Positions 9,222 through 11,237 of a stretch of DNA of 36,965 nt are shown piece after piece. The first letter of the stretch is position 1; every line of letters begins with the position of its first letter. A program made the position numbers and the translations under genes. The DNA comes from an uncultured Bacteroidales bacterium (GTDB taxonomy: Bacteria > Bacteroidota > Bacteroidia > Bacteroidales > UBA932): the NCBI GenBank assembly GCA_900318015.1, contig ONJB01000017.1, forward strand, positions 1-36,965. The letters are read 5' to 3'. The notes under the pieces are model-generated. The model saw only the letters and a list, made by a program, of their open reading frames with translations, ran no database searches and was not told the DNA's origin.

Positions 9222-11237
<2,016 letters not shown>

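Follow-up and report, generated by a model that had tools for sequence, protein, structure and literature searches.

Two palindromes of identical sequence lie in reading frame within two genes of the window, the 36,965-nucleotide stretch of DNA from an uncultured Bacteroidales bacterium analysed here. Both (copies D and E) are very probably CGTC-tagged REP elements of a CGTC-2-like type, a non-autonomous selfish hairpin that is dispersed through this Bacteroidales genome and tolerated in genes when the frame is open. There is a repeat family with a conserved paired hairpin, its members have in-frame hosts, and relatives possess empty sites. We propose that the hairpin, with its 8-bp stem and 5-nt loop, inserts in genes and spacers alike, and that insertions in genes would persist where the frame stays open and the protein loop is tolerant. 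Copying may proceed via single-stranded DNA through the action of a HuH-type or other enzyme, the peptide arising from the element is probably neutral, and an occupied site may later take in, or be swapped for, other palindromes.

Copy D (7745..7773, forward strand) reads RHSRPDRES in a comF-like phosphoribosyltransferase gene (6893..7951, forward) and copy E (9565..9593, reverse strand) reads the same in a gene for a 671-residue P1B heavy-metal (Zn/Cd-type) ATPase (9222..11237, reverse), assigned by family match. The original prediction had claimed a 29-nt identity and a common 11-residue peptide, and both are borne out: 9565-9593 matches the comF copy exactly as its reverse complement, and both copies encode the same peptide in frame. 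The identity runs to 34 nt in inverse orientation (7744-7777 and 9561-9594). In a genome scan with the exact 28-mer of the window only D and E match without mismatch, and many other genome copies are mutually identical in a form with a CTTGA loop. Family scores for the comF-like host are weak, below curated cut-offs, and shorter uninterrupted relatives exist; the gene has two insert regions. The first of these contains a reverse-strand REP (7414..7442; covariance model, E 2.6e-9). A 24-nt half-element (7462..7485, forward) stands in tandem directly before a diverged REP read in the VIPG frame (7486..7513, forward; a weak covariance-model match, E 0.0036), and copy D has a head-to-head partner with an ATGGCC-type stem (7687..7715, reverse; E 6.2e-10). 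Three related repeats of ~94 nt with AGCACG/CGTGCT motifs, mostly intergenic, are found around comF (6720-6813, 7948-8041 and 9032-9125; the latter two 78% and 62% identical to the first).

The D/E palindrome is far above chance in this genome (3.2 Mb, 106 contigs). Fifty copies were found at up to three mismatches against none for a reversed-pattern control, and a covariance model built from 49 unique elements gave at least 112 matches at E ≤0.1 with 150 candidates scored. All 50 pattern matches start with GTCAT and have a stem beginning AT. The full CGTC tag was recognised by eye in 45 of them and is present in 47 of the 49 model elements, which were picked as C/T-GTCAT. Among 83 elements, 68 have a loop of 5 nt and 15 one of 6 nt, all 83 being picked by pairing in a search confined to loops of 4-6 nt, and CTTGA is the commonest loop. 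The stem is changed in 15 of the 50 pattern matches, of which 11 are fully paired, two have a G-U pair and two are mispaired. These 50 were not chosen by pairing, unlike the 49 model elements, in which covariation is biased toward pairing because they were picked by tag and pairing. Judged by such sequence features, the family fits the CGTC-tagged REP superfamily, and CGTC-2 best, for which the published criterion is a stem of 8-9 bp and a loop of 4-5 nt (PMC3733652).

Twenty-three of the 50 sites are arranged head-to-head, two head-to-tail and one tail-to-tail, and 24 are single; the head-to-head arrangement thus leads among paired sites (23/26) and not over singles. Half-elements in tandem follow a 24-nt step in all five cases of this genome; of 15 cases in relatives, which are non-independent and in some of which coding was checked, 14 have a step of 21, 24 or 27 nt. 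The sole off-step half-element (22 nt, L047) is at a site with noncoding flank. A neighbouring gene apparently takes its stop codon from the element at two loci, L032 and L040 (AATCTA giving TAG antisense). A scan of viral contigs with one exact pattern matched one contig (L310).

Reading frames around the elements were assigned with a coding model seeded with 11 window genes picked by eye and then self-extended, which gave top rank to the presumed frame in 695 of 711 segments of 150 nt from its own training set. A model trained on the longest ORFs was dropped, as it was misled by antisense ORFs. With one duplicate site (L029/L044) removed from 51 rows, the 50 distinct sites comprise 20 in frame in genes, 17 with noncoding flank, seven on the same strand in another frame, four with opposite strands and two in the same frame with a stop; the classes of seven and two, taken as groups, are not a count of disrupted genes. 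The in-frame hosts have a family match in 17 of 20 cases and none in three. They include the ATPase, ComF, an outer-membrane efflux protein, a DNA-alkylation repair protein, GH3, MurE, an NTP transferase, TruA, M20, an Fe/Mn superoxide dismutase, a 4Fe-4S protein, a sigma-54 regulator, bMG10, UvrA-like proteins twice, GDSL and FtsK. The two uvrA-like genes (L033 and L044), each with in-frame elements, recall REP insertions that have been reported for uvrA elsewhere among bacteria. The element is open in four of its six readings, and each of the four occurs among the 20 in-gene copies (RHSR 4, VIPG 7, antisense EIPG 8 and antisense RFPV 1).

Copy E apparently occupies a tolerant helix-strand loop of the P domain, before VAFVGDGIND. 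The original prediction placed the peptide between VEALL and VAFVGDGIND, and the place is correct (DKVTHVEALL, then the peptide), but the segment that it described as a strand ending in VEALL is a predicted helix (528-539). In an AlphaFold model the insert is mostly coil (~540-559) between this helix and the strand 560-563 (VAFV). Because that model is weak (mean pLDDT 68.5, with 542-559 and 563-603 below 50), the loop position rests mainly on alignment with ZntA (4umv), the closest solved structure, in which the loop is shorter at the insert position.

The ATPase site is empty in the closest relative (G394, 92%) among the 400 genus genomes searched. Compared by eye with this empty site, the ATPase gene has 42 extra nt (9565..9606, reverse strand) and a 9-bp direct repeat, GCGCCGGCG, with one copy beside the insert (9556..9564) and the other at 9607..9615; the repeat is single in G394, and insert plus repeat make 51 nt, or 17 amino acids. 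By eye, no direct repeat of this type was seen at the other empty sites. A general target site duplication, as in MITEs, seems doubtful since the repeat was seen at the ATPase site alone, and for the same reason any route of insertion is provisional. The RHSRPDRES-type peptide is present in none of the best 80 of 583 confirmed ATPase relatives, all 80 of which were aligned because a narrow regex for the peptide overlooked most of them. Relatives that carry names are Bacteroidales, mostly metagenome-assembled genomes and many of them ruminant-derived. The nearest of the 80 (L056) has a different insert at the site. An ATPase tree groups the gene with those of G394, G063 and G148 (100) and leaves the order of this genome, G394 and G063 unresolved. 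In G148, whose loop is as in L056, and in G335 the ATPase loop holds a CCTGAGC-type repeat. A separate repeat, CCTGAGCYTGYCGAAGG, was seen in the same loop in L056, G148 (L229) and G335 (L233); it also adjoins or lies inside CGTC elements in murE of G394 (L275) and uvrA of G148 (L293).

These comparisons bear out one part of the recent mobility that had been claimed, namely an inserted repeated element (absent from the 80 orthologues, with an empty site in G394 and 20 of 50 sites in frame). They also speak against a very recent comF copy, as copy D is common to this genome and its sister L056. Between species, REPs diverge less than their flanks (14/392 against 72/1080, p=0.024; nine hand-picked same-length shared pairs from six sites), a point against the selfish reading, since it could also reflect constraint or homogenisation.

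The original prediction took the shared frame and orientation of D and E as the sign of a mobile peptide module. In such a module RHSRPDRES itself would be selected and moved among proteins. Both window copies do encode one peptide, in the G063 ATPase a CGTC element at the same loop, read in the same frame, yields the near-identical RHSRLDRESP, and between the comF copies of this genome and L056 there are two in-element differences, both synonymous by eye. The genome-wide census speaks otherwise. Frame usage at the 20 in-frame sites is compatible with equal use of the four open frames (p=0.12), and orientation is balanced (11 sense against 9 antisense, p=0.82). Two in-frame copies would agree in frame and orientation with a chance of ~0.25-0.33, and since all four open frames are used, sense and antisense, the agreement of D and E is unremarkable. 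One DNA gives four peptides, RHSR accounts for only 4/20, comF itself has a diverged copy in the VIPG frame, the comF of G063 retains only part of the peptide, and changes in the stem preserve pairing. After this census the idea is largely refuted and we consider it highly improbable. As four frames are used among the 20 in-gene copies, it is the DNA that spreads, and the peptide looks like a by-product of that spread. A rival account is a local event, in which E would have been copied from D, or both kept alike, as inverted neighbours 1.8 kb apart. Their being sole carriers of the exact 28-mer, with 34 nt in common, agrees with this, as do the CTTGA loops of both corresponding copies in G063; CTTGA, however, is the commonest loop anyway. 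We regard local copying or conversion as a genuine possibility, although the balance tilts away from it. The order of D and E is ambiguous, given that the ATPase site of G063 is also occupied by an element and that D occurs without E in L056.

For 27 of the 50 sites, flanking sequence was used as a query against G394, G148 and G063 (window sites were compared separately), giving 64 site-genome rows (21, 24 and 19, respectively). Many compared sites share the CGTC family (F1) and some are empty, as is GDSL in all three relatives bar ~10 nt. Three other families (F2, F3 and F4) were delimited by eye. F2, TGTCATTTCGA...TCGAGAAATCT, is placed where this genome has F1, with an exact core in TruA and bMG10 (both in G063 and G394), the sigma-54 regulator (G394) and an unnamed gene (L053, in G063), and with an inexact core in UvrA (G394) and at L050 (G063 and G148). 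Exact-core copies of F2 number 9 in this genome, 44 in G394, 55 in G063 and 9 in G148. They occur in at least one relative at four F1 sites against 0.09 expected (P 2.6e-6; 120-nt segments, uniform placement), an expectation that ignores loop tolerance and the common ancestry of copies in G063 and G394. Pure divergence is argued against by the dispersal of F2 elsewhere and by the empty sites of some relatives. Both points lead us to favour recurrent insertion or exchange.

One form of this, to which we give almost an even chance, is that occupied sites act as hotspots or landing pads, where CGTC-type palindromes of different families would displace or enter each other by way of common termini (GTCAT...ATCT). 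The four sites with F1 here and exact-core F2 in sisters are consistent with it, as are the sigma-54 site of G394, where an F1-like left part is kept beside F2, and murE of G394, where F4 lies within the F1 loop. Against it, tolerant loops would by themselves cluster survivors, boundaries agree within 0-26 nt and their exactness is not constant, F2, F3 and F4 were defined by eye, and relatives have F1 or an empty site at most sites. A bolder version strikes us as rather unlikely: in-gene CGTC elements would serve as landing pads where palindromes of different families swap at identical codons of orthologues via these termini alone, and would grow in frame by 21/24-nt half-element steps, such that cells would permanently keep sites, tolerated by the protein, at which selfish hairpins can dock. 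The dispersal of a non-autonomous hairpin also calls attention to its mobiliser, for which a host Y1 (RAYT-like) transposase is a conceivable, if doubtful, candidate. Many genomes of the genus have Y1 genes (78/101 by Pfam, 86/101 with the protein of this genome as query), and CGTC elements occur in at least 65/101 (E ≤1e-5; ~74 candidates scored per genome, which makes the copy numbers minimum values). Of 49 elements, 44 have CT after the stem (the third tail base is variable), and TnpA-REP cleaves at CT beside the hairpin (PMC8266576), a resemblance that is no more than suggestive. On the other side, REPs occur in 2/32 and 1/30 Y1 loci against 4/29 ATPase loci, none was found at either of two Y1 loci of this genome, and in G013 (70% complete) 24 REPs were found but no Y1 gene. 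Published work likewise reports no flanking Y1 genes (PMC3733652). No mobilising enzyme for CGTC REPs was found, and proximity in the genus gave no support to Y1 as the cognate enzyme. One Y1-like protein of this genome (L035/L196, C92:234304-235170) matches one in G010 at 98% identity, against only ~70% for the ATPase DNA of the two genomes, which makes horizontal transfer likely.

Protein-coding palindromes of the selfish kind, known chiefly from obligate intracellular Rickettsia, occur commonly in this gut Bacteroidales genus, with housekeeping genes such as murE, truA, uvrA and ftsK among their hosts. With hundreds of sequenced species, and filled as well as empty sites, the genus makes the CGTC mobiliser and the choice between hotspot and divergence testable. 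Annotators should be warned that RHSR, VIPG and EIPG peptides may be repeat-derived. Our literature search, with subscription journals mostly outside its reach, gave no earlier description of CGTC elements lying in frame within named Bacteroidales genes, and in the available text of a 2025 REP survey that cites the CGTC work nothing was found on intragenic copies (PMC12306157).

CGTC-tagged REPs were described by Di Nocera and colleagues in 2013 from five phyla including Bacteroidetes, with in-frame intragenic copies and no dedicated transposase (PMC3733652). The elements here share with them (i) the CGTC tag, (ii) an 8-bp stem beginning AT with a 5-nt loop, (iii) head-to-head pairs and (iv) in-frame intragenic copies, among them in uvrA and tRNA pseudouridine synthase genes, with no flanking transposase (PMC3733652). 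They come from this Bacteroidales genus and may differ in their tail, which is mostly, though not always, CCA in the published elements and CT plus variable bases here, and in their tandem 21/24-nt half-elements, of which no description was found in the sections consulted (PMC3733652). GTAG REPs with RAYT/TnpA-REP are likewise tagged hairpins in opposed pairs with CT near the foot, but the tag here is CGTC and the repeats are near few Y1 loci. RPE-4 and RPE-6 of R. conorii have been equated with CGTC families (PMC3733652). A 2013 paper on Rickettsia japonica reports that RPE-4, -6 and -7 share ATGAC and that orthologues bear different groups at one site, and its authors leaned to a common origin without excluding hotspots (PMC3767692). 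Compared by signature rather than by RPE consensus, the present family shares with these ATGAC (equivalent to GTCAT), in-frame location in genes (20/50 here) and different groups at the same site (PMC3767692). According to a 2007 review, an RPE-bearing guanylate kinase is still active with altered substrate affinity (PMC2229807). The family described here differs from RPE-4/6/7 in belonging to another phylum, in having close relatives with empty sites and in having a second family dispersed in the genomes.
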